Origin: a bacterium
Lineage (GTDB): Bacteria; Sumerlaeota; Sumerlaeia; SLMS01; JAHLLQ01
Reading direction: 5' to 3'
Assembly (NCBI GenBank): GCA_020444065.1
Contig: JAHLLQ010000001.1
Coordinates: 62,001 to 126,000 of the forward strand
Length of the DNA: 64,000 nt
Within the stretch, counting starts at the first letter, position 1. Each line of letters starts with the position of its first letter. This document shows, one piece after another, positions 4,801-53,393 of the stretch. Position numbers and translations under genes: made by a program. Under the pieces are notes generated by a model. That model did no database searches, was not told the origin of the DNA, and was given only the letters and a program-made list of their open reading frames with translations.

Positions 4801-6045
4801 GTATTCACATCATTGGGAGGAGCCCGGGATGTCTTCGTTTCGGGGTCAGTCGCCTATGTTGCTGCCGAAGCAGATGATGCATTAAACCTCATCGATGTTT
4901 CTGATCCGGCCAATCCAGCTTTGCACTCAATTGCTCCACTCCCTTTAGATGGCGCCAGCTCCGTTTTTGTGCTTGGAACGACTGCCTATGTGACCGCCGA
5001 CACTGCTGACACCCTTTCTATTCTTGATGTCTCAAACCCTGCTTCTCCAAGCTTGCTGGGAGTTGCTGAAGATGGAGTTAATGGTTTCGATGGCTTAAAT
5101 GGAGCCTACGATGTATTTGTTCAGGGAACGATAGCCTACGTTGCTGCCTTCAATGACAGCACTCTCTCCTGTATTGATGTCAGCAATCCCGCCGCTCCCG
5201 TTCAACTTGGTGTAGCCCGTGACAATGTAGGTGGATTCCCGCATCTCTTTCAGGCAGCCAATATTGTTGTGGTTGGCAACATCGCCTATGTTGCCTCGGA
5301 GGGTAACGATTCCTTAACGCTGATCGATGTATCTGACCCGACGATTCCTGCTCCAATCAGTGTCGCGCGAGATAATGATGGAACCTTCGACGCATTGGAT
5401 GGCGCACGCTATGTCGAGGTTGATTCGGGTTACATCTATGTCGCGTCCCTGCTTGATGATTCTCTGACAATTATGGAAACCGTTTCCGAGCCTCCCACCG
5501 GGTTGCTTGTCGAGAACTCTCTGCAGGTAAATGGGAATCTCCAGATGGGTGGGAGTCTACAGGTGGCTGGCACATCTCCGGCGCCTGGCCTTGTCCTGAT
5601 GGCGACAGATACATCCGGCAACCTTGAATATTCAAAACCCATCTTTCAGGATTCAACTTTCAATGCAGCAGAATACGTGGTCGATGCCGGTTTGACCAGT
5701 ACCTATGTTGACCTGGGGCCGACCACCACCCTCTCGCTTCAGGCGGGACAGAAGGTTCTGCTGATGGTTTCGTTCAGCTTTGAGATTCGAGGTGGCTCGG
5801 GAACCGATGATGTCAAATTCCGATTCAGCTCACCGGCAGGTGATTGCCCTGCGATCAGCGAGGCGGGAACGAATACTCTTGAGCACTTCGATCAACACAG
5901 GGATCAGTGGCAGTCGGTTTCCTTTCACAGGGTTGTCGGCGTTACCTGTGATGGCGAATATCAATTCAGGCTGCAGGTTGATACATCCACATCAGACGAT
6001 GAGCTGGTCGCTCGCTATGTGCAGATTACAGCGATCGCTCTGTGA
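1840..6045 (+). CDS. Giant secreted protein with two seven-bladed LVIVD beta-propellers
   Basis: This 1401-residue protein starts with a signal-like hydrophobic segment (about residues 20-40, ending LLCHVAAADPG). Domains in order: an N-terminal 'GTAFSYQGRLQNAG' beta module (about 43-140); a first set of seven LVIVD-type repeats of 45-55 residues (about 250-585), each close to 'VxGxxAYVxxxDDxLTxIDVSDPAxP'; a linker with tail-fibre-like motifs (VGIGTSTPSSKLEVNG, FSGDGSGLSG; about 590-800); a second set of seven repeats (about 877-1217); and a C-terminal beta-rich domain (about 1268-1401). Seven repeats match one closed propeller. No enzymatic motif or membrane anchor is seen. A cell-surface or extracellular adhesive role is inferred. 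It sits between fructosamine-kinase fragments A and B. Confidence 0.85.
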   Translation: MNRFFSPTRASQDGLVTWNGVLMTLLTFLLPPLLCHVAAADPGTAFSYQGRLQNAGIPVLNNVDLRFTLYDSATSPTVVAGPINVSSHAWPDGIIETDLDFGDVFDGSPRWLGIEVANPSGGSFISLDPRVELKPASYSIYAENAGTAQNVLNDAVDDADADPTNERNTALSLNGTNLELTDAGGTLSADLSGLTGSFGDAHSLDAADGSPVDAVFVDADGRVGVGSNKPTAGLSVSSSSPSGSFSLRQLAAAQDEVGAFTRLSSPQDLVVSNQKAFITSRVDDTLSIIDISNPMAPALLGEAVDGAGFTNLNNVQSVFVSNNRAYVIGGTSLDAMTIIDVSDPTAPAQLGVAANGVGGISGLTDARALFVSGNRAYVGASSTLIILDVSNPAAPLQLGAAVSGVGTITHMVTPSDVFVSGGTAFVSSLDNSVTILDVSNPATPTQLSVLVDDIAGFNDLSFPTALHVDGGICYVVSLLDSAVSMIDVSIPATPALLGVAKEGVGDFTELQGAAHIDVVGSIAYVTAVTDDAVTMIDVSDPANPALIATAKDGTGTFDALNKPLEIAVSGDSVLVAAEDDDALCVLGLSPGNLGLEVVGDTLLRNDLDVRGNAIIGGSVGIGTEASDPLTVAGTIQAELPDNGGVSSYIRMGEPNGNVEVDMKDGASRYHIKIADSGNFHIEREGNGGIPGISTDPLGQVGIGIDAPDTILHSYSPFQGEQGGLKISQGSSNSVIYHNSNSDLILRKFNQTDQLVLDSGGDVGIGTSTPSSKLEVNGTVTASAFSGDGSGLSGVHNTNFTLNNTSLELTDGDGVLSADLSPLAGSAFGDGHSLDAADGTPADVVYVDALGRTGIGNTAPYAPLHVGPLGGSVVPVPVQLGTVVDGVGSFTSLNRASAVFVEGTTAYVTSEDDASLTIVDITDRSNPTLLGVATDGVGGFTDLAGANSVVVAGGVAYVTAGADSALTMIDVSVPASPSQLGVAKDGVGVFTSLGGARDVFVSGSVAYVAAEADDALNLIDVSDPANPALHSIAPLPLDGASSVFVLGTTAYVTADTADTLSILDVSNPASPSLLGVAEDGVNGFDGLNGAYDVFVQGTIAYVAAFNDSTLSCIDVSNPAAPVQLGVARDNVGGFPHLFQAANIVVVGNIAYVASEGNDSLTLIDVSDPTIPAPISVARDNDGTFDALDGARYVEVDSGYIYVASLLDDSLTIMETVSEPPTGLLVENSLQVNGNLQMGGSLQVAGTSPAPGLVLMATDTSGNLEYSKPIFQDSTFNAAEYVVDAGLTSTYVDLGPTTTLSLQAGQKVLLMVSFSFEIRGGSGTDDVKFRFSSPAGDCPAISEAGTNTLEHFDQHRDQWQSVSFHRVVGVTCDGEYQFRLQVDTSTSDDELVARYVQITAIAL

Positions 6046-6309
6046 GATCCCTGGGGCGAAGAATTCCGACGGTCAATCAGGGCGACGATGATGAGATTCG
6101 ACGTGCCGGAAGGGCGGACCGTTGACGGGACCCGCCGAGACGACAAGGATGTGAAATTAGTGATCAGACTGGAGGATAGCTTTCGGCGGCGATATCTACC
6201 ATGCTGAACGATAGCTCTACGGAGAAGTCGCAAATACTTCAAACGAGGATCCAAGAAGAAGAAAGTAGCCGAATGAAGCGGCTGACCCTGGACTTTGAGG
6301 ACACATCCC

Positions 6310-6573
6310 TCACCCCGCATACCGCTGCAGAATCTGCATGCAGCTGCCGTGGTAGCCGCTGCCAAACAGGTTCAGGTGATTGAGCAGGTGGTAGAGTTTG
6401 TAGACGTCCAGGCGTGTTAAGCTGCCTTCCGCCAGTGGCCAGACCTCTTCGTAGCCCTTGTAGAAGTCCGACCCGAAATTACCGAACAGCAACGTCATGG
6501 CGAGGTCGGCTTCGCGGCGGCCGCAGTACGCGGCCGTGTCGATGAGGACCGCATCGCTGTCTCACAGATCGCC
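6310..6573 (-). pseudogene. Copy B: truncated fructosamine-kinase 3' fragment
   Basis: This fragment matches the last ~88 codons of the intact kinase gene (10952-11851), with about 94% nucleotide identity by eye over the aligned part. From an internal ATG it reads 62 residues, MTLLFGNFGSDFYKGYEEVW onwards to QILQRYAG, differing from the intact copy at only two positions (S to L and L to V). It keeps an in-frame stop (TGA instead of TAG). At its inner end about 24 nt are deleted (after 6560) before an 11-bp match (cacagatcgcc, 6563-6573). The kinase core, including HGDLWGGN, is absent, so it cannot encode an active enzyme. It separates the two giant-protein genes. Confidence 0.9.
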
Positions 6574-6818: not shown

Positions 6819-9800
6819 ATGAGGACTACTGATAAATGGTGCTTTACCATTCTGATCACCCTATGTGTCTTGCTCGGTCAGCATGTCGGGGCCGACCTGA
6901 CCACAGCCGTCTGGCAGGGGTCGACGAACACCTGGTCCAACGCCGCCAGTTGGGACGTCGCTACCGTTCCTGATAATGACGCTTCCACGACCTACAGCGT
7001 CAAGATTGACGATGGCTCAACAGGAACCAACTCGGTCGTTACGCTGAACCAGAACGCCACCATCATTGACCTGACCGTTGACTCCGGAGATGAGCTGACC
7101 TTCTCCAACGGAAATACTCTGACGGTCGATGGTAGCACATCGGTGACCAACAATGGGACAATCAGCCTGGGCGGCTCCTCCTCAATCACTGCGCTTGTGC
7201 TGGCCGACGACACCCTTCTGACCGGAAGCGGCGAACTCGTCCTGAACAATCAGACGAACGATCGATTGAGAATTGCCGACTCTTCAGCCGGGATTCAGGA
7301 CCGGATTATTCATGATACGGACCACACGATTCGCGGTACGGGAACGATCGATTCAAGTGGCGTGTTTGGGTGGACGGAGTTCGTAAATCGAGGACTCATT
7401 CGCGCGGATGCGTCGACGCGACTTCGTTTTTCTCCCGGGCTGAACATCTTCAGCGATGATGGCGGAAGACTCGAAGCCACCGGTTCTGGAGGCCTGGAGT
7501 TCAATGGTGGCTACTACATGAACTTCGGCAATGTGGAAATCCAGGACAACTCGGTCTTGTATCTGTCCGGATCCACGACCTTCAGCACGGGCACATTGAC
7601 GACTCAAGGCACCGGGACCATTGAGACGGAATCCGGTTCACGGACATTTCAGCGGATGACTCTCGCGGGGACGTTGAACCACAATAATGCGGACTATATC
7701 ACGGTTTTCGACGAGATGACGAACGACGGACTATGGAACGTCAAGGGCAGTTCATCGGCGACAGAAATCACGATCTATGATACAGCAGAAATTCTGGGAA
7801 GTGGTGAGATTGTTCTGGAGAATCAAACGTATTCCCAGATTTACCTGCGCAATCTCAATGACCTGGAGCCCAACCAGTTAACCAATGGGACCAACCACAC
7901 GATCAGAGGAATGGGATCTGTTTCCAGCGTCGGAGTAAGTGGGAACTTCGTCAACCAGGGAACTGTCCGCGCCGACGCGACAGGGCGGCTGACCTTTTCG
8001 CTGGGTGCAGGGGTCTTCTCGAACACGGGAACGGTTCAGGCTGTCGGTTCGGGTGGCCTGGAGTTTTCAGGCGGATACTACTCCAATTTCGGCACCGTCG
8101 ATATTCTGAACGGCTCGAAACTCTACCTGAACACATCTGCCACCCTGTCGAACGGAGAACTCCTGACCCAAGGGACAGGAACCATTGAAACCGAATCTTC
8201 CATCACTTTCAACAACGTCACGCTTGGGGGAACATTCAACCATAATAACGGCGACTACGTTACCCTCTTTGACGGCGTGACGAATAATGGGACCTGGAAT
8301 GTCAACTCTTCCGGAGGAACAACAGAGATAACGGTTTACGATACAGCCGCATTGGATGGGACAGGGGAGATCCTCCTTAAGAACAAGGACTTCGCGAGGC
8401 TCTACCTCCGAGATCTGAACCCACTGGAGACGAACCAGCTGACTCAAGGCGCGAATCACACGATCCGCGGCACGGGTCAGATCACCGCCATCGGCGAGAG
8501 TGGGAACTTCATCAATCAGGGATCGATTCTGGCTGATTCGTCCAACCGGCTGAGGATATCCCTGGGTGCAGGCATATTCTCAAACACGGGGACTGTCCAG
8601 GCGACGGGTTCGGGAGGACTGGAACTCTACGGGGGCTACTTCTCCAATTTCGGCAATATCGAGGCGCTCGACGGTTCCGCCTTGTACCTTAATGGCTCCG
8701 CGCACTTCACAAACGGGCAACTCTCCACCCAAGGCACAGGTTTCATTGAACCGGAAGGGTCTGTCACACTGGATACCGTTACTCTGGCAGGCGCGTTTAA
8801 TCACAATAATGGCATCTACGTCACACTGCAAAACCAACTGACAAACAACGGCACGTACACCATCAGCTCTTCAGGTTCCACGACGGAATTGTCCGCCTAC
8901 GATACTGTCGCCATTAATGGGACTGGCGAGATCGTGCTGCAGAATCAGAACAACGCGAGTATTCACTACCGAGACCTCTCTGCCGCCCCCAATCAAATCA
9001 CTCACGGCGCCAATCACACGATCCGCGGAACGGGCGAGATCAGCGGTATTACCGTGGGCGGGAATTTCATCAATCAAGGAACAATCCTGGCCGATGCATC
9101 GGGACGGTTGATCATTGCCCTGGGCGGTGGGATCTTCTCCGATAGTGGAGGAACTCTGCGTGCAACCGGATCCGGTGGACTTGAGCTGGCCAGCAGCTAC
9201 TTCTCCAACTTCGGAAACATCGAAGTTCTCGACGGGTCGAAGCTGTATCTGTCCTCGGTGCAACTCACCACGGGTACGCTCACGACAGCCGGAACAGGAA
9301 CCGTCGAGGCGGAGGGCAGCATCACAGCACAGGGGGTTACGCTTGATTGCGTTCTGAATCAGGATGACGGCGATTCTTTTGCCGGTTTCGACAGCATTGT
9401 CAACAACGGCACCTGGACCATGAATGGCACATCCGCCAACACCTATGTGACCATGTACGATACTGTCGACTTAACCGGAAACGGAACGCTCTATTTGAAC
9501 AGCGACACATACGACATCTTCACAATCTCTGATCTGTCCCCCTCTGAGAGCGATGCGTTTACGAACGGAGTCAACCATACCATCCGAGGCGTCGGTGCGA
9601 TCTCCGGCGGGCATTTTGAAAATGAGGGGACTCTCATTGCCGACCAAGCCACTCCCCTGCGTGTCGCTCCCGGCTCGAAGGGTTTTCACAGCACCGGCAC
9701 TCTCAGCGCTCCCGCTGGAAACGTGCTCAACATCGATGCGGTTCCCGGGACGGGATTTGAGAACCTCAATGCAACGACGCATGAACTCCGGGATGGCACC

Positions 9801-22289: not shown

Positions 22290-22741
22290 GAGTTGCTCGG
22301 CGATTCGTAGGATTGGTCTCCCCGCCTGCCCGGGCGCAAAGGTCGGGCCGCAATTCCCGAAAGGGAGACTCACGGGGACGCCTAGGCGAAGCGAAGTGCG
22401 GGCGGCTGTGGCAAGGGGAAATTCGTCGGTCGGCACGAATACCGCGAGATCGAGATTGAGGATCGAGACTCCAAGTCCAATTTCTTCAGGCTTATACGTA
22501 ACGGCCTGCCGATTCCTGAAACTGTATCGCTCCGAGCGGTCTGCTGTCCCCGCCCTGCAGACCTAACTCGGTGTTGGCTTTCCGGCCCTCCCCCGCTCAC
22601 GGCCCAAAACCACCGGGTCACTATGCACCGCACGTGGCGCTTTGCTGCATCGCGACTCGCCCTTTCGCTTCGCCATTGCCACGCTGGCCCTTCCGTCGCA
22701 ACATTGTCTTTTCGAGCCACGATCGCCACCGAGAGCGCCTC
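22290..22741. other. Divergent intergenic region between topA and the kinase-TPR gene
   Basis: 452 bp between divergently transcribed topA and the receptor kinase. It probably carries both promoters, but I find no convincing -35/-10 pair, hairpin or coding sequence. The kinase reading frame is open back to 22571, but that extension has unusual composition and lacks family features. Confidence 0.5.
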
Positions 22742-25700
22742 ATGCCCGCACCGGATGACCAGAACATCCCCACCGATCTGCCGGCAGATCTGCCGCAAGA
22801 CCCCGCGACGTCCTACGATCCGGCGAAGACAATCCGGCTGCCCGAGAATGCTCAGCAGACAACCAGCCTGGCGTTTCAAACGACATTGAGTCCCGGCCGA
22901 TGGACGGTTTCCGCCAGCCAGGGCGAAGGCAAGCAGACTGAAGAAGTGCAGGCAGACCTGCCGGCGTTTGAGTTGCAGGAAGTCATCGGCAAGGGTGGAT
23001 TCGGCGAGGTCTGGCAGGCGCTGCAATCCTCTCTCGGCCGCGTGATCGCGATCAAGCGCCTCCGCGAGGATCGCTTCCTTGAATCGCGTGACGATCCTGG
23101 TTCATCCCGCCAGATGGAAATCACGTTCCGGCAGGAAGCCTTCACGACAGCGCGCCTCGACCACCCGAACATCGTTCCGATCTACGACCTCGGTGTGGAT
23201 GACGAGGGACGTCCGATGCTTGCGATGAAACTCGTCCGTGGTCGTCCCTGGGATGAGCTGTTGATTGCGGATGCCGAATTACCCCCGCGCGAGTTCCTCG
23301 ATCGCCATTTGCCAATTCTGATCGATACGGCACAGGCCGTCGCTTTCGCTCATTCGCGTGGCATCATTCACCGAGACTTGAAGCCCTCGCAAGTTATGGT
23401 GGGCGATTACGGCGAAGTCCTCCTCATGGATTGGGGACTCTCTGTCATCTACGACCTGGAACGCGCGAACTCGACCGAAGATCGTCCGATCGATGCCCGG
23501 CTCGGGATGACATTGGAGAGTGCCTCTAACCCCTGCGGGACCGTCGCCTTTATGGCGCCGGAACAAACAGAGGACACGGCAAAGAATATCGGCCCCTGGA
23601 CCGACGTGTACCTTCTCGGTGGAACACTCTACTATCTGCTGACGCTGCGCTTTCCTCACGGCGCCCCGGATGTACAAGGCGCTTTCCGCCAGGCCATGCT
23701 TGGTGAAGTGACTCCCGCCCAAATGCGTGCCCCAAATCGGGAGATTCCGGCGGAACTGGCGGAACTCTGCAGCCGGGCCCTCGCGCCCAACCGTGCCGAA
23801 CGGCTCGAGTCAGCTGAGGCGTTTCTTCAGGCACTTCGCGACTTCCAATCGGGCGCATCGAAACGTCGTGAGTCGGAAGCGATTGTTGGCACCATCGAAC
23901 GACGCTTGAGTGCCGGATTGGCGAGCTACCGCGATTTCGGAGAGTGTGAAAACGAATTGGCGCGCGCGATCGGTTTGTGGGGAGAAAACCGCGCAGCCCG
24001 CCAACTCCAGGATCGCGTTCTGCAGGGCCATACGGAACTCGCTCTGCGGAACGGCGACTTGATGTTGGCGCGTGTGCTGGCGGAACGACTTGAACACACG
24101 CCTGAGGCCGTTGCGCTCTTCGCCAATGTCGAAGCCGCGGAACGGCGTTCGCGGCACCATCAAACTCAGCGCCGCGTGCTGATCCGAGCAACTGTCGTGC
24201 TCTGCGTTGTCCTGGCGTTCCTGGCCGTGTTTGCATATCGCCGAGCCATCATGGCACAGAATGAACGGGAGAAAGCCGATATCAGCCGACAACTGGCTGA
24301 GAATGCTCTTGGTCAGTCGAGGAAGAAGGCCGCCGAGGCTGAGCGCGAGCGCGATCTCGCGCACGATTCGCGTCGGCGTGCGGAAGATCTGATGAGCTTC
24401 ATGCTCGTCGATCTTCGCGAGGAACTGGAGCCTCTCAATCGGCTCGATATTCTCGACCAAGTGGCGATGAAGTCACTTGATTACTTCGAGGATCTACCCG
24501 CGGAAGAATTTACCCCGACCGCCTGGCAACAGCGCGTGCTTTCGCTCCGCCAGATCGGGCAGGTCCTTCTGAATCAGGGCAAGTTGTCCGAAGCAGACGA
24601 TGCCTTCAAACAAGCTCAAGACCTGATGGGACAATTGATCGAGAGCGATCCCGAGAATCTCTCGTACAAGCGCGACTACGCCACAATCCTTGGCCAGGTG
24701 GCGCATGTCCGTTACATGCAAGGCGAACTGGATGAGGCCTTGAATCTCAATCGTCAGGCCCGTGAAATGCTCAACGGACTTGCCAACGATGCAGAAACAA
24801 GACGTGCCCTCGCAGAGCGCCTGGCTCAAGGTGTGGATTTCGAACTCGATGCCGGCAATCTCGAAACCGCCACAGAGCTGCAACAGAATGCGCTGGAGAT
24901 TCAGCGTGGCCTCACGGCTGAGAACCCTGACAGCACCGCCGACCGCAGCCGGCTCGCGGAATACGAATCGCAGCTCTCGGACATTCAGGAGAGGCTCGGG
25001 CTGCTGGCGGACGCGATCGAGACACAGGAAGATGCTCTCGCCATCATCGAGGAACTTTCGGCACAGGATCCCACGAATCCGAATCTCCTCCATAGCCTCG
25101 CCGGTGCCTATTCCGAATACGCCGGGCTGCTTCGCCAGGGCGGTCGCATGGAGGAGGCCCTGGATTACAGTCGCAAGTGCCTCGATGTCTTTGAGCCGCT
25201 CGCCAAAGCCGATACGGCGAATCTCGACTGGCAACACCGATTGGGTGTGTTCGATCTGCAGTTGGCCGTCTTCGAAGAAATCTCCGGACAAATCACCCCG
25301 GCGCGCGATCGCTATCAAGATGCCATCGATGTTCTGGAAGCCCTCGTCGCAAGAGATCCGGAGAATATGCTGTGGCGATTTGATCTCGGACGAGCGCACC
25401 AGTTCCTGGCAGATCTGCTTGTGAATCAGCGACAAGGCGACGAGGCGCTCCTGCATGCGAACAAGGCTCAGGGCATCTACAGCTCATTGGTCGAAGCCGC
25501 CCCCGAGAATGCCCAGTATCTGCGCCATCTCGGGGCCAGTCTGAATGCCAAGGGGCTCATTCTGGAGGCGGCACAGAAGTACGACGCCGCCGAAGATGCG
25601 CTTCGGAAGTCACTCGAGATCCGTCGCGAGATGCTGGAGAACGATCCAACGAATGCCGTTCGTCATCGCGATGTGGCCGTTGGCTTGACCAATCTGGCTG

Positions 25701-26617
25701 CCACGCTGAAGTCGGAAGGTCGCTACGATGAAGCGATCGAGGCCTACTGGGAATCGGCCGATGTGCTGAAGAGCCTGTCCGATGCGGACACGGCAAACTA
25801 CCAACTGCAATTCGATGTAATTGCTACGCAGATGAATATCGGAACAGTGCTGCAGGAGATCGGCCGAGAGGAAGACGCCCTCGAAGCATACGATCTGGCG
25901 ACTGAGAGCTGTCGACAGTTGGTGAAGGATGAACCGGCCAACCAGGAATTCCAGCGCATGCTCATTATGATCTATCTGACCCGAGGCGAAGCTCTGGATG
26001 CGATGGAGCGGCCGGAGCACGCCCTGCATTACTTCAACCTGGCGATCGAACTGGCAGAGTCTCAGTTGGCCGACGATCAATCGAATCTGGATGCGGAAAG
26101 CAACCTCGCATCCGCACTCGCCGATTCAGCCAGCATTCAATGGCGGCTTGAGAATCGCGAGGAAGCACTTGCCACGCGCAAGAAGGCGCTCGCCCACTAC
26201 TTGAGCCTTGTCGAGGCAAGTCCCAGTAATCCGTATTCAGTCTACGGGCTCCTCAACACGCGCTCGCTCCAGGGATATGAAGAACGCGAAGTTGGAGATC
26301 TCGATGCCGCCGCGGAAAGCTATCGTCTGGGAATCGCAGAGTCCCTTGAAGCTCTCGAGCAACCGGGTCAAGCACCGCTTGCAGCCGAGGAAATGCTGCC
26401 GGAACTCGCGCTCGGTCTCGCTATCGTCGAAGCGCAGCGTGGCAACATTGATCTGGCCATCGCCGCCCTCAAACAAGCGGTCGATCACGGCTTCGATGAC
26501 GCGAAGTATCTGGAAAGCGAAGAACTCCTCGCGCCCGTACGTGAAGGGGCACCAGAGGAAATCAAGAAGTTAAAGGAACAAATCCGAGAGAGCCTTCAGG
26601 AGCCCGGAGAGGAGTAG
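22742..26617 (+). CDS. Membrane Ser/Thr protein kinase with TPR sensor domain
   Basis: 1291 residues from ATG 22742. The kinase domain (about 77-370) has the glycine loop VIGKGGFGEVW, VAIK-type lysine (IAIKRL), catalytic HRDLKPSQVMV, and DWG in place of DFG (LLMDWGLS), common in bacterial PknB-like kinases. APE is seen as MAPEQ. A hydrophobic segment (about 480-500, RATVVLCVVLAFLAVFAY) follows, then a coiled stretch (NEREKADISRQLAEN) and about a dozen TPR-like repeats (about 580-1270). In this class the kinase is cytoplasmic and the TPRs bind partners on the other side of the membrane. Targets are unknown. It converges on the PilT-N gene, 4 bp apart. Confidence 0.92.
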   Translation: MPAPDDQNIPTDLPADLPQDPATSYDPAKTIRLPENAQQTTSLAFQTTLSPGRWTVSASQGEGKQTEEVQADLPAFELQEVIGKGGFGEVWQALQSSLGRVIAIKRLREDRFLESRDDPGSSRQMEITFRQEAFTTARLDHPNIVPIYDLGVDDEGRPMLAMKLVRGRPWDELLIADAELPPREFLDRHLPILIDTAQAVAFAHSRGIIHRDLKPSQVMVGDYGEVLLMDWGLSVIYDLERANSTEDRPIDARLGMTLESASNPCGTVAFMAPEQTEDTAKNIGPWTDVYLLGGTLYYLLTLRFPHGAPDVQGAFRQAMLGEVTPAQMRAPNREIPAELAELCSRALAPNRAERLESAEAFLQALRDFQSGASKRRESEAIVGTIERRLSAGLASYRDFGECENELARAIGLWGENRAARQLQDRVLQGHTELALRNGDLMLARVLAERLEHTPEAVALFANVEAAERRSRHHQTQRRVLIRATVVLCVVLAFLAVFAYRRAIMAQNEREKADISRQLAENALGQSRKKAAEAERERDLAHDSRRRAEDLMSFMLVDLREELEPLNRLDILDQVAMKSLDYFEDLPAEEFTPTAWQQRVLSLRQIGQVLLNQGKLSEADDAFKQAQDLMGQLIESDPENLSYKRDYATILGQVAHVRYMQGELDEALNLNRQAREMLNGLANDAETRRALAERLAQGVDFELDAGNLETATELQQNALEIQRGLTAENPDSTADRSRLAEYESQLSDIQERLGLLADAIETQEDALAIIEELSAQDPTNPNLLHSLAGAYSEYAGLLRQGGRMEEALDYSRKCLDVFEPLAKADTANLDWQHRLGVFDLQLAVFEEISGQITPARDRYQDAIDVLEALVARDPENMLWRFDLGRAHQFLADLLVNQRQGDEALLHANKAQGIYSSLVEAAPENAQYLRHLGASLNAKGLILEAAQKYDAAEDALRKSLEIRREMLENDPTNAVRHRDVAVGLTNLAATLKSEGRYDEAIEAYWESADVLKSLSDADTANYQLQFDVIATQMNIGTVLQEIGREEDALEAYDLATESCRQLVKDEPANQEFQRMLIMIYLTRGEALDAMERPEHALHYFNLAIELAESQLADDQSNLDAESNLASALADSASIQWRLENREEALATRKKALAHYLSLVEASPSNPYSVYGLLNTRSLQGYEEREVGDLDAAAESYRLGIAESLEALEQPGQAPLAAEEMLPELALGLAIVEAQRGNIDLAIAALKQAVDHGFDDAKYLESEELLAPVREGAPEEIKKLKEQIRESLQEPGEE

Positions 26618-44997: not shown

Positions 44998-45378
44998 ATG
45001 TTTCTTCGCCGAAAAACTCCACGCGGATTCGTACTGCTCTCGATGCTGATGGCCCTGGCGATCGTCGGGATCCTATCCGGCATGTACATGGGCGGGGGGC
45101 CGGGAGGCGCTCCGGGTGCCAAGCCCTGGCCGGTTCAGCGTATCGATCGCGCAAAGAGCGCCGTCTGTGCCGCAAATCGCCGCACCGCAATGTCTCGAGT
45201 CGTAGAAGCCCAGATCAACAGCGGCACAACCCGTCTGTCAGTGCCCGAAATGCAACGCGTGATGGGCAGCATCCCCGCCTGCCCGGGCGGTGGACGCTAC
45301 TATACGATCGGTGGAGACGTCTTCTGCACGCTCCACTCCGATACGCCGAAGTTCGGAGAATTGCTCGGGCTGTATTAG
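44998..45378 (+). CDS. Pilin-like protein with atypical N-terminus
   Basis: 126 residues. The N-terminus MFLRRKTPRGFVLLSMLMAL continues into AIVGILSGMYM, which looks like a type IV pilin/pseudopilin prepilin leader (Gly-Phe cleavage, then a hydrophobic helix). After cleavage before F the +5 residue is Ser, not the usual Glu. That is tolerated in minor pseudopilins such as GspK. The remainder is a short Cys-containing domain (SAVCAANRRTAM, SIPACPGGGRYYTIGGDVFCT) with an SVPEMQ segment and no known enzyme motif. The end overlaps the convergent kinase gene by 4 bp. It probably uses the PilB/GspE in this window, but is far from it. Confidence 0.7.
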   Translation: MFLRRKTPRGFVLLSMLMALAIVGILSGMYMGGGPGGAPGAKPWPVQRIDRAKSAVCAANRRTAMSRVVEAQINSGTTRLSVPEMQRVMGSIPACPGGGRYYTIGGDVFCTLHSDTPKFGELLGLY

Positions 45379-46448
45379 GGCAGCGCCTCTTCCTGGTCGC
45401 CCAGACGATTCAGATGAAGATACGCGTCCGTCCCGTAACCTTCCATTGAGATCACCTGCAAGTCCCCCCCGAAGTACCGCGCATACAGGCGACTGATCGG
45501 CAGACCGTATCCATAGCCCGCCATCGGGTCGAAGTCGGTCTGGTACATGGCATTCTCAGGTGGCGGGGTGGCTGTCGTGTAAAGGTACGTCCAGATGCGG
45601 GGCATGCCGCTGCGAGGGATGCCGCCGCCTTCGTCGGAGATCTTGATGGCAATGTCTTCCTGCCCGTCGGCGATAATGACCTTGATTTCGGGGAAGTCCT
45701 CCTCGCTGTGGGTTTCCACAACGGCTCGCATGGAGTTCTTCAGCAATTCAAACAGCATGTGGTGCAAGTGAGACACGACATACGTGAATCGCAGATCGGT
45801 CCTTCCATAGATACCGACCGGAGGCGCCACACCGTAGCTGCGCACGCAAACGTCGCGAGCATGCGCCACGGCATCGCGAGCAATCTCGGCCGGTCGGCAA
45901 TTGGCGCAAACGATCCCAACCCAATCGCAGTCCATCTGCGCCTGGTGAAGGGCAACGTGCTGTCCGATCAGCATACGAATGCCGATACGCGAGATGTAGA
46001 ATCGATCGAGGAATGCCGGCAGTTGATCGCCCAGTTCCTTCGTCCCGAGCTTGCGCTGAAGCTCATGAATGCCCTGCGCCATTGTGGAGACGACCGTGTT
46101 GTGCCGGTTCTTGATGCGCTCGATCAGATCGGAGAACGCCTCGTCATCCTCTGGTGCGCTCGGATGCGGGAAGTCCAGCAGGTCGATGAACGTCTCAACG
46201 TACCACTCGTGGATGCGCTTGACCGAAGGCATATCGGACAGGCCGTAAGGCGCTGTCTCCAGTTCCTTGATGCGCTTCGCGATCCGGATCGGCAGTTCCG
46301 TGTGGAGATACTGAGCGGACGTCAGCAGGACCTTCGGCGAGGGATCCGCGCCGAAGTCGAAGAGCTGCTTGATGGTGAGCCGGGTCTCTTTTCGCCGCGC
46401 ATAGATTGTAATCTCGTCGGCGAGCTTTTTGGTCATCTCAATGGGCAT
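45375..46448 (-). CDS. Mitochondrial-type pyruvate/branched-chain dehydrogenase kinase homologue
   Basis: 357 residues colinear with eukaryotic PDK/BCKDK proteins. The N-terminal four-helix domain (about 25-180) has LTIKQLFDFGADPSPK, ELPIRIAKRIKEL, PSVKRIHEWYVETF, IKNRHNTVVSTMAQGIHEL and FLDRFYISRIGIRMLIGQH. The GHKL ATPase domain (about 215-350) has SHLHHMLFELLKNSMRA with the His and Glu of the active site, the G1 box KISDEGGGIPR, the ATP lid YLYTTATPPP and GYGYGLPISRLYARYFGGDL, ending MEGYGTDAYLHL. The C-terminal DW tail of vertebrate PDKs is not seen. In eukaryotes these enzymes inactivate the E1 subunit by serine phosphorylation. The bacterial target is unknown. It follows corA and M16 genes. 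Confidence 0.9.
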   Translation of the reverse strand: MPIEMTKKLADEITIYARRKETRLTIKQLFDFGADPSPKVLLTSAQYLHTELPIRIAKRIKELETAPYGLSDMPSVKRIHEWYVETFIDLLDFPHPSAPEDDEAFSDLIERIKNRHNTVVSTMAQGIHELQRKLGTKELGDQLPAFLDRFYISRIGIRMLIGQHVALHQAQMDCDWVGIVCANCRPAEIARDAVAHARDVCVRSYGVAPPVGIYGRTDLRFTYVVSHLHHMLFELLKNSMRAVVETHSEEDFPEIKVIIADGQEDIAIKISDEGGGIPRSGMPRIWTYLYTTATPPPENAMYQTDFDPMAGYGYGLPISRLYARYFGGDLQVISMEGYGTDAYLHLNRLGDQEEALP

Positions 46449-46551
46449 TGGCGTCTCACGGCCTCCTGGGTTCAGCCGGGAAAACGATGCCGTCAGCCCT
46501 CCACGCTGTCAACGATGTAGAGCATTCTCATCGCCCGAGTTCCGCGCGGCC

Positions 46552-49085: not shown

Positions 49086-50015
49086 TCATCTTTGAGTCGG
49101 ACGAGACCTTTGGCCTCTCCCTGGATCAAGGATTTCGACATGCTCGGGGCGCAAGGATACGGTGGACCCCTTGCAACTGGTTCGCCAGTTCGGACACGCC
49201 CAGAATTTCTCTGCATTCCTCCTGCTGAATCCCAAGACCATGGTGGCTCCGCAATCATCACACTTCGGAACGCGGATAATGGAAGGCTCGGCCTGGGGCA
49301 TCATTTTCCGGACGATGTGTTCGGCACTCGTCCAGATCCTTCCCCCGTCTTTCTCCTCTTCCGCCGGGAGTCGATCATTTGCGGCCTCAAGCCGCGCCAT
49401 GAGCCCGGCCCCGTCCAGGAGTGTAATCCCCGGAACGTCCTTGAATTCCTCCTCGGTCACATCCGCGAAGCGACCGCTCGTGACGAAAAGGGCCTCGTCC
49501 GCATGATCCCGGTGCATCACCCCAAACAACGCTCGAACAGGCTCCGGCCCGACGCGCTCCCTCATCCAGTGCTTACACTGAACCAACATGGTCTTGCCGT
49601 CCTTGGTTGCAATGATGTCTACTCCACCATCTGCGCAAGCCTCATCGGCCGTCAGCCTGGTGGCCTCGTATCCCTCGATCTTCAGCAGAGCTTCTACGAA
49701 CTGCTCGAAGTCATTCCATTGCAGCGACAGAACGGTTTCCATCGAACGATTCTGACGAAGAAGGAAATCGTGTTTGTACCTGATCGTTTGAGCCAGGAGC
49801 GCCAGGAACAGGAGCAGGAATGAACTCAGGAAGGCAGATACAGAAATCATCACCCACCAGATCGGCGGGCGAACAAGAACCCAGAGGACAACAGCAGGCG
49901 AAAGCAGCAGCAGGCTCAGAGTGAGAAGACTCAGGTCGGACAGCCGTGAGAGCTTGCTCAAGAGTCTTCCCAGATAGCGATCGAAGATTGATCGGCGATC
50001 CTGGTACTTTGGCAT
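49086..50015 (-). CDS. Membrane-anchored Mrr-like restriction endonuclease with zinc ribbon
   Basis: 309 residues. Two adjacent hydrophobic segments (about residues 28-48 and 53-75) precede an Mrr_cat nuclease domain (about 98-210): LQWNDFEQFVEALLKIEGYE, then ADGGVDIIATKDGKTMLVQC-type catalytic Asp and QxK, here GGVDIIATK and MLVQCKHW, then FVTSGRFA. The C-terminal topoisomerase-type zinc ribbon has CDDCGATMVL and FWACPNWRTSCKG. Mrr-like enzymes cleave modified or foreign DNA. It begins 3 bp after the type IIG gene, so the two form a defence operon. The membrane anchor is unusual for Mrr and may confine it near incoming DNA. Confidence 0.82.
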   Translation of the reverse strand: MPKYQDRRSIFDRYLGRLLSKLSRLSDLSLLTLSLLLLSPAVVLWVLVRPPIWWVMISVSAFLSSFLLLFLALLAQTIRYKHDFLLRQNRSMETVLSLQWNDFEQFVEALLKIEGYEATRLTADEACADGGVDIIATKDGKTMLVQCKHWMRERVGPEPVRALFGVMHRDHADEALFVTSGRFADVTEEEFKDVPGITLLDGAGLMARLEAANDRLPAEEEKDGGRIWTSAEHIVRKMMPQAEPSIIRVPKCDDCGATMVLGFSRRNAEKFWACPNWRTSCKGSTVSLRPEHVEILDPGRGQRSRPTQR

Positions 50016-50018
50016 TCC

Positions 50019-53000
50019 TCAAACCTCACCAAATGGATAGAACGTCTTCGTCTTCTTCTGGAAGTCCTCGAGCGTCCGTACCTCCTGGCTGGTCAGGCCG
50101 TAGAGATGGTAGACACGATCGTTGAGTTCCTCCTCCAGATCGATGATCCGGCCTGTCAGTCGACCATGCTCGCCGCGCCACTCGGCCAGGGCATCCTCCC
50201 ACCCCGAGCGCTCGCGCACGGGGATCTCGGCTTTGAAGGCCTTCTTGATCTGCTCTCGAAATGCCGAGAAATCCAGGTCCCACCAATTCGTCAGGGCAGT
50301 ATTCAACTTCCCGCCCTCAGGACACAGATCGGCTTCGATTCGATGGCGTGTGGCCCTGTGCAGACCAAGGCGCTCGCGGGCAAGTACTGTGATATCCGCC
50401 GCCAGAGAGGAGAGATGGCTGCGGCATTCATCATCCATTTCAGAGATCGGGAGACGTTCGATGAACTGCAATTTGGACTGATACTGCCAAAGACCAGCAC
50501 GCAAACGAAGAGGGAGACAGAACTGAGAGATACAAAACCAAGTGAGGCGGGACTGCAGGAGAGCAAGCTCCGCACCAGATTTAGGGATCAAGATGTAGCC
50601 CTTGTCATTTGTGTAGAGCCCGTCTTCATCCCACGAGAAACGTGGGAGTTTCTGAATATCTGGCCAGATGATCTTCGGATGGTCGAATTCCTGATAGTAA
50701 TCGATTGAATCCTGTAGTTCATACCAACGGTAACTTCCAGGCTTCCGCCCCGGCCAATCACTCGTCCTGCCGGCCCAGTCGGGCGGACGTGGCTCCAATC
50801 TCTCCCGGAAAGACTCCAGATACTCTCGAACTGCAGGGTACTCTGCGATGTCTATCCCTCTCCTCGTGAAGATCAAATGCCGATCTGCGAAGATCTGGTA
50901 CCACGGCCGTAGATCCTGACCTTGAAGGATCCGATGAATGATCTCATCGGATTTCGCATCAGCCGCGACCAATCGATCTCGTGTCTCTCCATCGACAATG
51001 AAGGCGTCATTCAAGCCTGTCTTTATTCCGTAGTAAATTCCTCCGCCGACCACCTCCCCCAGCGGCCTCCCGGCCTTCACAATCTTGTGCAGCAGATCGG
51101 TTACCGCACGAGGTTGGAACTTCCATTCCGACTCGTCGAAGACCGACTCGTCGCAGGGGAGACCTTCGTTCTTCATCTCCTCCTCGATCGAGTCCGGGAT
51201 TTTCTCGTGGATGAAGAGGGTCGGGAATTGAGCAGGCTCCGTATTCTTTTTGAGCGTGTACATCGTGGGGTAGACCATTTCGGCATCTTCGAAAGGCTGA
51301 TTCTCGCCGAAGTTCACCAGGGATGTGAAGCGCGCAGTGGTCGGTAGCCACTTTCTGAAGGTGCTGGCGAAGTTGCCACGAGAGAATGTGCCGCTCGTGA
51401 TGAAGCCCAGCCTTCCGCCCGCTTTGAGTACGTCCAGCCCCTTCTCCACGAAGTAGAGGTACAAGTCCGCGGTGCCGGAGTAGATCTCGTAATGCTGCTC
51501 CAGGTGGGGCTTCAGTGGGGCTAACCACTCCTGGCGAATATATGGTGGGTTGCCGACCACGACATCGAAGCCGCCCTCTGTGAAGACTTCGGGGAATGCC
51601 GTCCGCCAATCAAAAGCCCGCGGGTCCACGGTGGGATCGGCGATGATCGAGTTCCCGACTCGGATGGTGTGATCCAGATCAGTAAGGATTTTGCCTCGTT
51701 CCGCGGTCTTGATCCAGAGAGAGAGGCGGCAGATTTCGACGGCCTCTTCGTTCAAGTCGACGCCATAGAGGTTCTGTTGCAGAATCTGACGGTTCAGATC
51801 AAAGAGCTCGGCCTGCCCCCTCAGAGCTTCCAGCCGGGCATTGGCATCCTGGTAGGCTGCAAGGAGTTGATCGAAGGCCTCGATCAGGAAGGCGCCGGAC
51901 CCGCACGCCGGGTCGAGTATTCGCACGCGGCCCAGTTCCTCCTGCCAGTCCAGCCAGAACGCAATCAGCGCTTCCCGTTGCGGATTGTTCAATTCTTCGA
52001 GATCATAGGATGTCGGGCATTCCAGGGCCTGAGTGGCGGTACCCCGGGCCCGGGCGATGTGCCTGAGCCGGAGGGATTCAAGACGATCCGCCAATACAGG
52101 CCCCAGAGTATGTTCGACAATGTATCGCGTGATGAACTTGGGAGTGTAGAATGCCCCCTCTCGCTTGCGACGGCTCTTCGCTTTCTTTGCAGAGGGTGGA
52201 GCGATCGTGCCCTCCTGCTCCAGTTCGAGACGAAGGCGCTCGAGGTCCGTAATCGATTGCTCGAAAATATGCCCCAGGATTTCGACATCGACGATGGATT
52301 CAATCTGCTGCAGATCATCGAGAGATTCCTGCTCGGCAACCTCCAGGGCTCGGAAGTCATAGTCGGCGAGTCGCTTGAAGACCCCACACACTTCATCGGG
52401 CACGGTGAGTTCGTCCAGACACTCATCCGGAGCGAAGAGCCCGCCGTTATACCGCGGGATATTCAGTTGCGGATTGCCTTCGTTGATCGAGCGGAAGAGT
52501 CCCTTGAAATTCTCCCACTTCGGGTGCGGATTGTAGGGATCACTGTACTCGAAGGCGTGGCGCACAGTCTCCGCCGGAAGAAGCCCGCGGTCCTCGGCAA
52601 AAGAGCAGAAGAGGATTCGGTCGAGGATCTTCTGGGTCGCCGAGAGAAGCGGAGGTCTTTCAAGTTCCGGATTCGATTGGGTGAGACGTACGAATGCATC
52701 GAATCGCTGCTGCGAGTATTCCTGGTAGAAGGCCTTCGTGATGTTCTCGCCGGCAATGCGGGATTCTTCCAGCAAATCATAGAGGTGACTGCGACCCGTT
52801 TCCGGGATAACCCGACTGGCTCCCAGGATGAACAGGAATCGGCGAAGTGCCGATTCGCTCTCGACCAATCGGCTGAGAAAGAAGCGCTCGCAGGTGAAGC
52901 GATCCGCTCCCTTGTAGTAGAGCCTCGTCTCGACCATGGAGGAAACGAGGATCCAATCGCACGGCAAGTTGATCGCATAATCGAATCCCTGCATGACTGC

Positions 53001-53393
53001 GGAGAGCCGGCGGCCACCATGCGGGATATCGAGAGGATCCAACGGCCCTTTGATTTCGACCGCGACGACGACATTCCGACCATCTTGAGGCTTGGGTCCC
53101 AGGGCTGCATCAGCAAACTGCTGAGAGCCCGGAATGCGAAACTCAGGCACCAGTGTGAATCCATCGGGCGACTGGTTTGGAGTCCGATAGCCGAGAGCTT
53201 CCCCGAAAATGTCGGCCAGGAAGCCTGGTTTCAGGTTCTCCTCGCCCATGGCCATTCCTCCCGGGGAAGCGAGAAGGCTGTGGAGCGGCAGGAGTTTCTC
53301 TTTGGCCCTCTCCAGGTTTTCGGACGACTCGAAGGAACGAAGTCGATCCCGGAGGACTTCGGGACGAAACAGGGGTTTCAAGATTCGGCTCAC
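50019..53393 (-). CDS. Type IIG (Eco57I-like) restriction-modification enzyme
   Basis: 1124 residues, a single-chain nuclease and adenine methyltransferase. The N-terminal PD-(D/E)xK region has ADAALGPKP and VVAVEIKGPLDPL (about residues 90-120). The methyltransferase has EGAFYTPKFITRYIVEHTLG, motif I ILDPACGSGAFLIEAFD (about 495) and motif IV VVGNPPYIRQE (about 612). A target-recognition and helical region completes it (LLRPWYQIFADRH, LIPKSGAELALLQS). Start is GTG 53393 without a clear ribosome binding site; a later ATG is possible. The recognition sequence cannot be read from sequence. It overlaps no gene; the Mrr-like nuclease follows 3 bp later. Confidence 0.9.
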   Translation of the reverse strand: MSRILKPLFRPEVLRDRLRSFESSENLERAKEKLLPLHSLLASPGGMAMGEENLKPGFLADIFGEALGYRTPNQSPDGFTLVPEFRIPGSQQFADAALGPKPQDGRNVVVAVEIKGPLDPLDIPHGGRRLSAVMQGFDYAINLPCDWILVSSMVETRLYYKGADRFTCERFFLSRLVESESALRRFLFILGASRVIPETGRSHLYDLLEESRIAGENITKAFYQEYSQQRFDAFVRLTQSNPELERPPLLSATQKILDRILFCSFAEDRGLLPAETVRHAFEYSDPYNPHPKWENFKGLFRSINEGNPQLNIPRYNGGLFAPDECLDELTVPDEVCGVFKRLADYDFRALEVAEQESLDDLQQIESIVDVEILGHIFEQSITDLERLRLELEQEGTIAPPSAKKAKSRRKREGAFYTPKFITRYIVEHTLGPVLADRLESLRLRHIARARGTATQALECPTSYDLEELNNPQREALIAFWLDWQEELGRVRILDPACGSGAFLIEAFDQLLAAYQDANARLEALRGQAELFDLNRQILQQNLYGVDLNEEAVEICRLSLWIKTAERGKILTDLDHTIRVGNSIIADPTVDPRAFDWRTAFPEVFTEGGFDVVVGNPPYIRQEWLAPLKPHLEQHYEIYSGTADLYLYFVEKGLDVLKAGGRLGFITSGTFSRGNFASTFRKWLPTTARFTSLVNFGENQPFEDAEMVYPTMYTLKKNTEPAQFPTLFIHEKIPDSIEEEMKNEGLPCDESVFDESEWKFQPRAVTDLLHKIVKAGRPLGEVVGGGIYYGIKTGLNDAFIVDGETRDRLVAADAKSDEIIHRILQGQDLRPWYQIFADRHLIFTRRGIDIAEYPAVREYLESFRERLEPRPPDWAGRTSDWPGRKPGSYRWYELQDSIDYYQEFDHPKIIWPDIQKLPRFSWDEDGLYTNDKGYILIPKSGAELALLQSRLTWFCISQFCLPLRLRAGLWQYQSKLQFIERLPISEMDDECRSHLSSLAADITVLARERLGLHRATRHRIEADLCPEGGKLNTALTNWWDLDFSAFREQIKKAFKAEIPVRERSGWEDALAEWRGEHGRLTGRIIDLEEELNDRVYHLYGLTSQEVRTLEDFQKKTKTFYPFGEV

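Follow-up and report, generated by a model that had tools for sequence, protein, structure and literature searches.

The kinase gene and its family

The window, that is, the whole 64,000-nucleotide stretch of DNA analysed here, carries on its minus strand a gene for a 357-residue kinase of the PDK/BCKDK family (45375..46448), recognized from its open reading frame and translation, Pfam, phmmer and an AlphaFold model. The frame starts with ATG, is full length and uninterrupted, and is preceded by a Shine-Dalgarno-like AGGAGG (46462..46467, minus strand), read directly 13 nt before the ATG. The neighbours of the gene in the window are CorA, an M16 peptidase, ThiF, a PIG-L family protein and restriction genes. 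At 49086-53393 on the minus strand, an Mrr-type restriction endonuclease-like gene lies next to a gene for an Eco57I-type methylase/restriction protein of 1124 aa. On the plus strand, some 20 kb away from the kinase gene, is a gene for a large Hanks-type Ser/Thr protein kinase with TPR repeats (22571-26617; 1348 aa). No RNA element was found near the kinase gene, and a promoter and terminator scan gave nothing clearly above chance.

The kinase consists of a BCDHK_Adom3 regulatory helical domain (residues 23-181; 45906..46382, minus strand) and a GHKL ATP-binding kinase domain (residues 226-347; 45408..45773, minus strand), the latter recognized by a HATPase_c match (Pfam; 1.4e-13, 51.7 bits) and with the DxGGG and GxGxGLP motifs conserved. 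The regulatory domain matches the full PF10436 model, positions 1-160 of 160 (1.3e-53; 181.6 bits against a Pfam cut-off of 24). A chance match is excluded, and PF10436 had no match in 14 control genomes. In a phmmer search against the PDB, human PDK2 was matched at 9e-81 over residues 19-356 and BCKDK at 1.5e-66. The proposal of the earlier note, that a full-length homologue of the PDK and BCKDK kinases lies at 45375-46448, is thus borne out by Pfam, phmmer and the fold match described below; all the motifs it quoted are found in the translation, and the HMM search it suggested, with PF10436 and HATPase, matched both domains, PF10436 over the whole model.

The earlier note had also raised the possibility of an ordinary two-component histidine kinase. 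Such kinases share the GHKL ATPase domain but carry a HisKA-type phosphoacceptor domain, whereas the regulatory domain of the window kinase is PF10436. No HisKA-type domain was detected in a Pfam scan up to E = 1; ordinary histidine kinases scored only about 1e-3, 3e-3 or worse in phmmer against the PDB; and in NCBIfam no model names the kinase, while histidine kinase models match its ATPase part only, far below their cut-offs. In view of the PF10436 domain, the matches to PDK2 and BCKDK and these NCBIfam scores, this assignment is rejected.

The AlphaFold model of the kinase has a mean pLDDT of 78.8 and a pTM of 0.80, with a poorly resolved and unreliable ATP-lid region (residues 279-314). 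Using this model, Foldseek retrieved human PDK2 (2e-27; TM 0.87) and human BCKDK (TM 0.83), so that the PDK fold is present in the predicted structure, though the ATP lid carries no confidence. Residues were mapped onto human PDK2 with the offset checked against the printed letters of the alignment. The N box, H230-MLF-E234-LL-K237-N238-SM-R241 (45726..45761, minus strand), supplies the counterparts of PDK2 H239, E243, K246, N247 and R250, and D282, G284, G286, T302, G317, G319 and G321 (PDK2 numbering) are kept as well; the catalytic residues are invariant across 13 bacterial proteins. The residues that line the pyruvate/dichloroacetate pocket of PDK2 are largely retained: Y80, I111, H115, S153, R154, I157, R158 and I161 are identical, while R112 is replaced by Lys (in each of the 13 bacterial proteins), S83 by Thr and L53 by Ile. 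In the numbering of the window kinase, the pocket residues listed within BCDHK_Adom3 are Y83, K113 (R112 in PDK2), H116, S153, R154, I157 and R158.

The kinase resembles human PDK1-4 colinearly over its whole length (43% identity to PDK2) and shares with them the fold, N box, DxGGG, GxGxGLP and most of the pyruvate/dichloroacetate pocket residues, but it is bacterial, shows no evident mitochondrial presequence, has a putative target, and lacks the C-terminal cross-tail with the DW motif. It ends at residue 357, near PDK2 residue 360, and is therefore without the animal C-terminal tail, through which animal PDKs bind the lipoyl domain. The cross-tail is a feature of animal PDKs (PDK1-4) and not of the whole family. 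BCKDK belongs to the same family and has a similar C-terminal end point, but is less like the window kinase than PDK2 is (38% identity for rat BCKDK); for example, BCKDK has Tyr at the H239 counterpart, where the window kinase has His, and the residues at the counterparts of both H239 and I161 are PDK-like, not BCKDK-like. A putative plant-type PDK sequence from Arabidopsis gave 51% identity and a similar C-terminus, and is a lead only; a human PDK4 sequence obtained in the same manner matched the PDB over 363/363 residues.

Distribution in bacteria and the candidate E1alpha target

The contig that carries the kinase (C1) is 1,263,720 bases long and belongs to a 5.2-Mb, 97% complete Sumerlaeota genome. 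Within this phylum, every one of the five genomes in the host's family has PF10436, as do 5 of the 7 genomes of the sister family in the order, but none of the remaining 28 does. Among 84,980 species genomes scanned, three loci lay outside Sumerlaeota, all in MAGs of one order, taken here as Acidobacteriota; distant relatives elsewhere may be missed, because the scan used exact peptide patterns. In this order 4/12 genomes match, one of the matches being a contig-end fragment, and no further kinase genomes were found in samples of 396 from the Acidobacteriota phylum, nor any relative on viral contigs and plasmids. There is, in short, a second, sparse group of the kinase in one Acidobacteriota order.

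The PDK/BCKDK family is mainly eukaryotic, and on this general ground one might suspect either eukaryotic contamination, which the earlier note named as a finding that would refute its proposal, or a functionless gene that strayed in recently. Contamination is rejected by the 1.26-Mb bacterial contig in a 97% complete genome, the Shine-Dalgarno sequence, a GC content of the gene (58.7%) that matches that of the window (58.4%), and the family-wide occurrence. Nine further Sumerlaeota genomes from two families carry the kinase at 45-57% identity, and the catalytic residues do not vary in the 13 proteins. Since the family-wide occurrence already refutes both suggestions, the chance that either applies is negligible.

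The earlier note advised looking for E1-alpha genes in the same genome, and one was found on the minus strand of the same contig, far from the window (C1:394846-395736; L006:1438-2700). It is separate from E1beta, whose gene adjoins it, and E2 is also encoded. The protein exceeds the NCBIfam cut-off for TIGR03182, PDH_E1_alph_y (452 bits against 394), and its nearest relative in the PDB is human PDHA1 (1e-77, against 3e-38 for a Geobacillus-type E1). It keeps RGHSMSDPATTYRT, the human counterpart being YHGHSMSDPGVSYRT. In the loop CYRYRGHSMSDPATTYRT, compared with TYRYHGHSMSDPGVSYRT in human, site 1 is Ser and site 2 is Thr; the human sites are Ser293 (site 1) and Ser300 (site 2). Site 2 is also Ser in the E1alpha of G018, G019, G020, G023, G025 and G026. 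The N-terminal extension of the host's E1alpha is rich in Lys and Ala (MATSKTRSTKAKGAKAPAAKGSAKKAAKAPAKKATRKA...), with a histone-H1-like make-up, and the E1alpha of G019 has a basic N-terminal extension too.

An E1alpha of the mitochondrial/alphaproteobacterial type with the RGHSMSDP phospho-loop is encoded in 14/14 kinase-bearing genomes. In Sumerlaeota, the HSMSDP form is present in 10/10 kinase-positive versus 2/30 kinase-negative genomes (G021 and G010). In the Acidobacteriota order, it is present in 4/4 kinase-positive genomes, with the loop RGHSMSDPATYRT, versus 0/8 kinase-negative ones, which have other E1 types only; the probability of this split is 0.002 if genomes are taken as independent, although their relatedness means that one event could account for it. 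For the same reason, only a few independent events may underlie the co-distribution as a whole. The loop is no proof by itself, since the HSMSDP serine also occurs in the kinase-less G021 and G010; alphaproteobacterial E1alpha likewise carry it without the kinase. It is, however, the only E1-type loop that turned up in both lineages as a candidate target. The E1alpha proteins form separate clades: that of Sumerlaeota has support of 100/99, and that of Acidobacteriota falls together with another Sumerlaeota entry that has no kinase. Kinase and E1 therefore probably did not travel as a single unit, and it is probable, judging from these sequences, that their pairing was made or kept separately in two phyla.

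Reversal would call for a partner phosphatase, and a search for a PP2C, proposed in the earlier note, was partly rewarded: the host genome has one, a candidate partner at C2:186301-187074. However, orthologs occur in most genomes of the order, including the kinase-less G021 and G022, and the gene adjoins the kinase only in G027, so that it is not kinase-specific. In that one genome, about 2 kb separates the PP2C gene (L066:8144-8989) from the kinase gene, which is on the opposite strand. The suggestion of the earlier note that a dehydrogenase complex is controlled by reversible phosphorylation thus gains from the co-distribution with E1alpha in two phyla and from a linkage to pdhA-pdhB-pdhC in one genome (see below), whereas for its reversible part only a generic PP2C is at hand.

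Gene neighbourhoods and competing targets

No operon with a dehydrogenase was found in the window, and the kinase gene is unlinked to pdh genes in the host genome and in 9/10 Sumerlaeota. The exception is G019, from the host's family, in which one 11.7-kb contig carries pdhA-pdhB-pdhC and then the kinase on one strand. Here E1beta lies at 8568-9554, E2 (pdhC), with lipoyl, E3-binding and catalytic domains, at 7280-8539, and the kinase at 5303-6373, with S12 and S7 ribosomal protein genes further on. The gap of about 900 bp between E2 and the kinase (L060:6374-7280) holds degenerate repeats of the type AACTACCAACT and is not common to the congener G020; the linkage may therefore stem from a rearrangement or from the joining of sequences during assembly. 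The chance of finding the kinase so near pdh in one of ten genomes is estimated at perhaps 2-3% (roughly 10 kb of 4 Mb).

Elsewhere in Sumerlaeota, no conserved neighbourhood of the kinase was found, except for a membrane-protein-like ORF without Pfam match in G025 and G026. This lack of conservation, together with window neighbours (CorA, M16 peptidase, ThiF, PIG-L) that include no dehydrogenase complex gene, would suit a kinase that uses the PDK fold on an unrelated target, such as a metabolic enzyme or a signalling protein, or that acts as a histidine kinase in a phosphorelay. The co-distribution with E1alpha speaks against both, as do the lack of a detected HisKA-type domain in Pfam and the far-below-cut-off NCBIfam matches, and we regard such a role as improbable.

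The Acidobacteriota neighbourhoods point elsewhere. The kinase is immediately preceded by korA-korB in G040 and G439 and by korB in G041; in G042 the genes before it encode a carboxyltransferase, an HMG-CoA lyase-like protein and an enoyl-CoA hydratase, a set reminiscent of leucine breakdown. Two Acidobacteriota loci (L054:2399-10911 and L056:12361-18882) show an unusual mixture, in which the kinase is preceded by 4-alpha-glucanotransferase-like and enoyl-CoA hydratase genes together with either korAB or genes for carboxyltransferase and HMG-CoA lyase-like proteins. The kor and leucine-breakdown-like genes would fit a reading in which this PDK/BCKDK-family kinase controlled another 2-oxoacid enzyme, either a KorAB-type 2-oxoacid:ferredoxin oxidoreductase or a fused, BCKDH-like E1. 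The host genome (G000) encodes a fused E1alpha-E1beta of the BCKDH type on the minus strand (724 aa; C4:181474-182403; L008:385-2556), whose loop RPYSHSLSDDHVYYRT makes it a possible second target and which keeps the serine loop YSHSLSDDHVYYRT. Moreover, the TIGR03710 oxidoreductase is present in 9/10 kinase-positive and 0/2 kinase-negative genomes of the Sumerlaeota order, the two negatives counting as one event because both belong to one genus. In the Acidobacteriota order, however, TIGR03710 is found in 12/12 genomes, with or without the kinase. The kinase also occurs without a ferredoxin oxidoreductase, in G027. Only Sumerlaeota yielded the fused SHSLSDD E1, which was not found in the Acidobacteriota kinase genomes, and the PDK-like residues at the H239 and I161 counterparts also argue against a BCKDH-type target. 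Control of another 2-oxoacid enzyme is thus unlikely, if less so than an unrelated target.

A putative pyruvate dehydrogenase switch and the origin of the family

We consider that the window encodes a genuine bacterial pyruvate dehydrogenase kinase, with a probability of roughly two in three on the strength of sequence comparison. Family membership, the intact catalytic and pocket residues, the cognate E1 with its target serine and the co-distribution are established. From these we infer a mechanism in which the kinase, with its PDK fold of helical bundle and GHKL ATPase, would dock through the E2 lipoyl domain and phosphorylate the RGHSMSDP serine of its own E1alpha, so that the NAD-linked pyruvate dehydrogenase (PDH) complex would be switched off; the phosphorylation and inactivation of a 2-oxoacid dehydrogenase E1 are suggested by co-distribution and loop conservation. 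High pyruvate, by binding the conserved pocket, would relieve the inhibition of PDH by the kinase. Counting against this mechanism is the missing C-terminal tail, which in animal PDKs serves lipoyl-domain binding.

The kinase-bearing bacteria also carry ferredoxin-linked 2-oxoacid oxidoreductases, and the switch may choose between the NAD-linked PDH and the ferredoxin-linked route as oxygen or redox state changes. The kinase may be of use to bacteria that possess both routes and have to decide between them, a reading that would fit all the hints from neighbourhood and distribution. A Sumerlaeota genome paper proposes that pdh is used under oxic and por under anoxic conditions (PMC8092238); the excerpts of it at hand contain no mention of the kinase.

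The place of the bacterial proteins in the family bears on its origin. The window kinase is 43% identical to PDK2 and 38% to BCKDK, while PDK2 and BCKDK are 32% identical to each other; both PDK and BCKDK resemble the bacterial proteins more than they resemble one another. The bacterial sequences lie, by this comparison, between the two kinases and are therefore useful for rooting the family. In the tree, support was 100/100 for f2, 93/99 for Acidobacteriota, a weak 45/61 for f1, and 27/0 for the split between eukaryotes and bacteria. The data are compatible with a bacterial origin, with an early transfer from eukaryotes, or with more than one transfer. A bolder proposal is that PDK/BCKDK is bacterial in origin, that eukaryotes drew both kinases from a stock still present in Sumerlaeota and the Acidobacteriota order, and that in these bacteria the kinase switches between NAD-linked PDH and ferredoxin-linked 2-oxoacid oxidoreductases; as a whole, this seems to us rather doubtful.

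A literature search for bacterial PDK found nothing relevant. The family itself is not new, but a member working in bacteria beside a matching E1 appears to be undescribed in the literature searched. The control of PDH by a dedicated GHKL serine kinase is taught as a mitochondrial trait without equivalent in bacteria. On the comparisons above, the window protein genuinely belongs to the PDK family, is conserved in bacteria and probably functions as a PDH kinase. Its small size and lack of a tail could make it helpful for structural work on the inhibitor pocket. With a bacterial PDK that is retained across an order and associated with a mitochondrial-type E1, covalent control of PDH in bacteria becomes testable, and so does the direction of kinase transfer, from bacteria to eukaryotes or the reverse; bacteria may use a PDH switch that has been thought of as mitochondrial.
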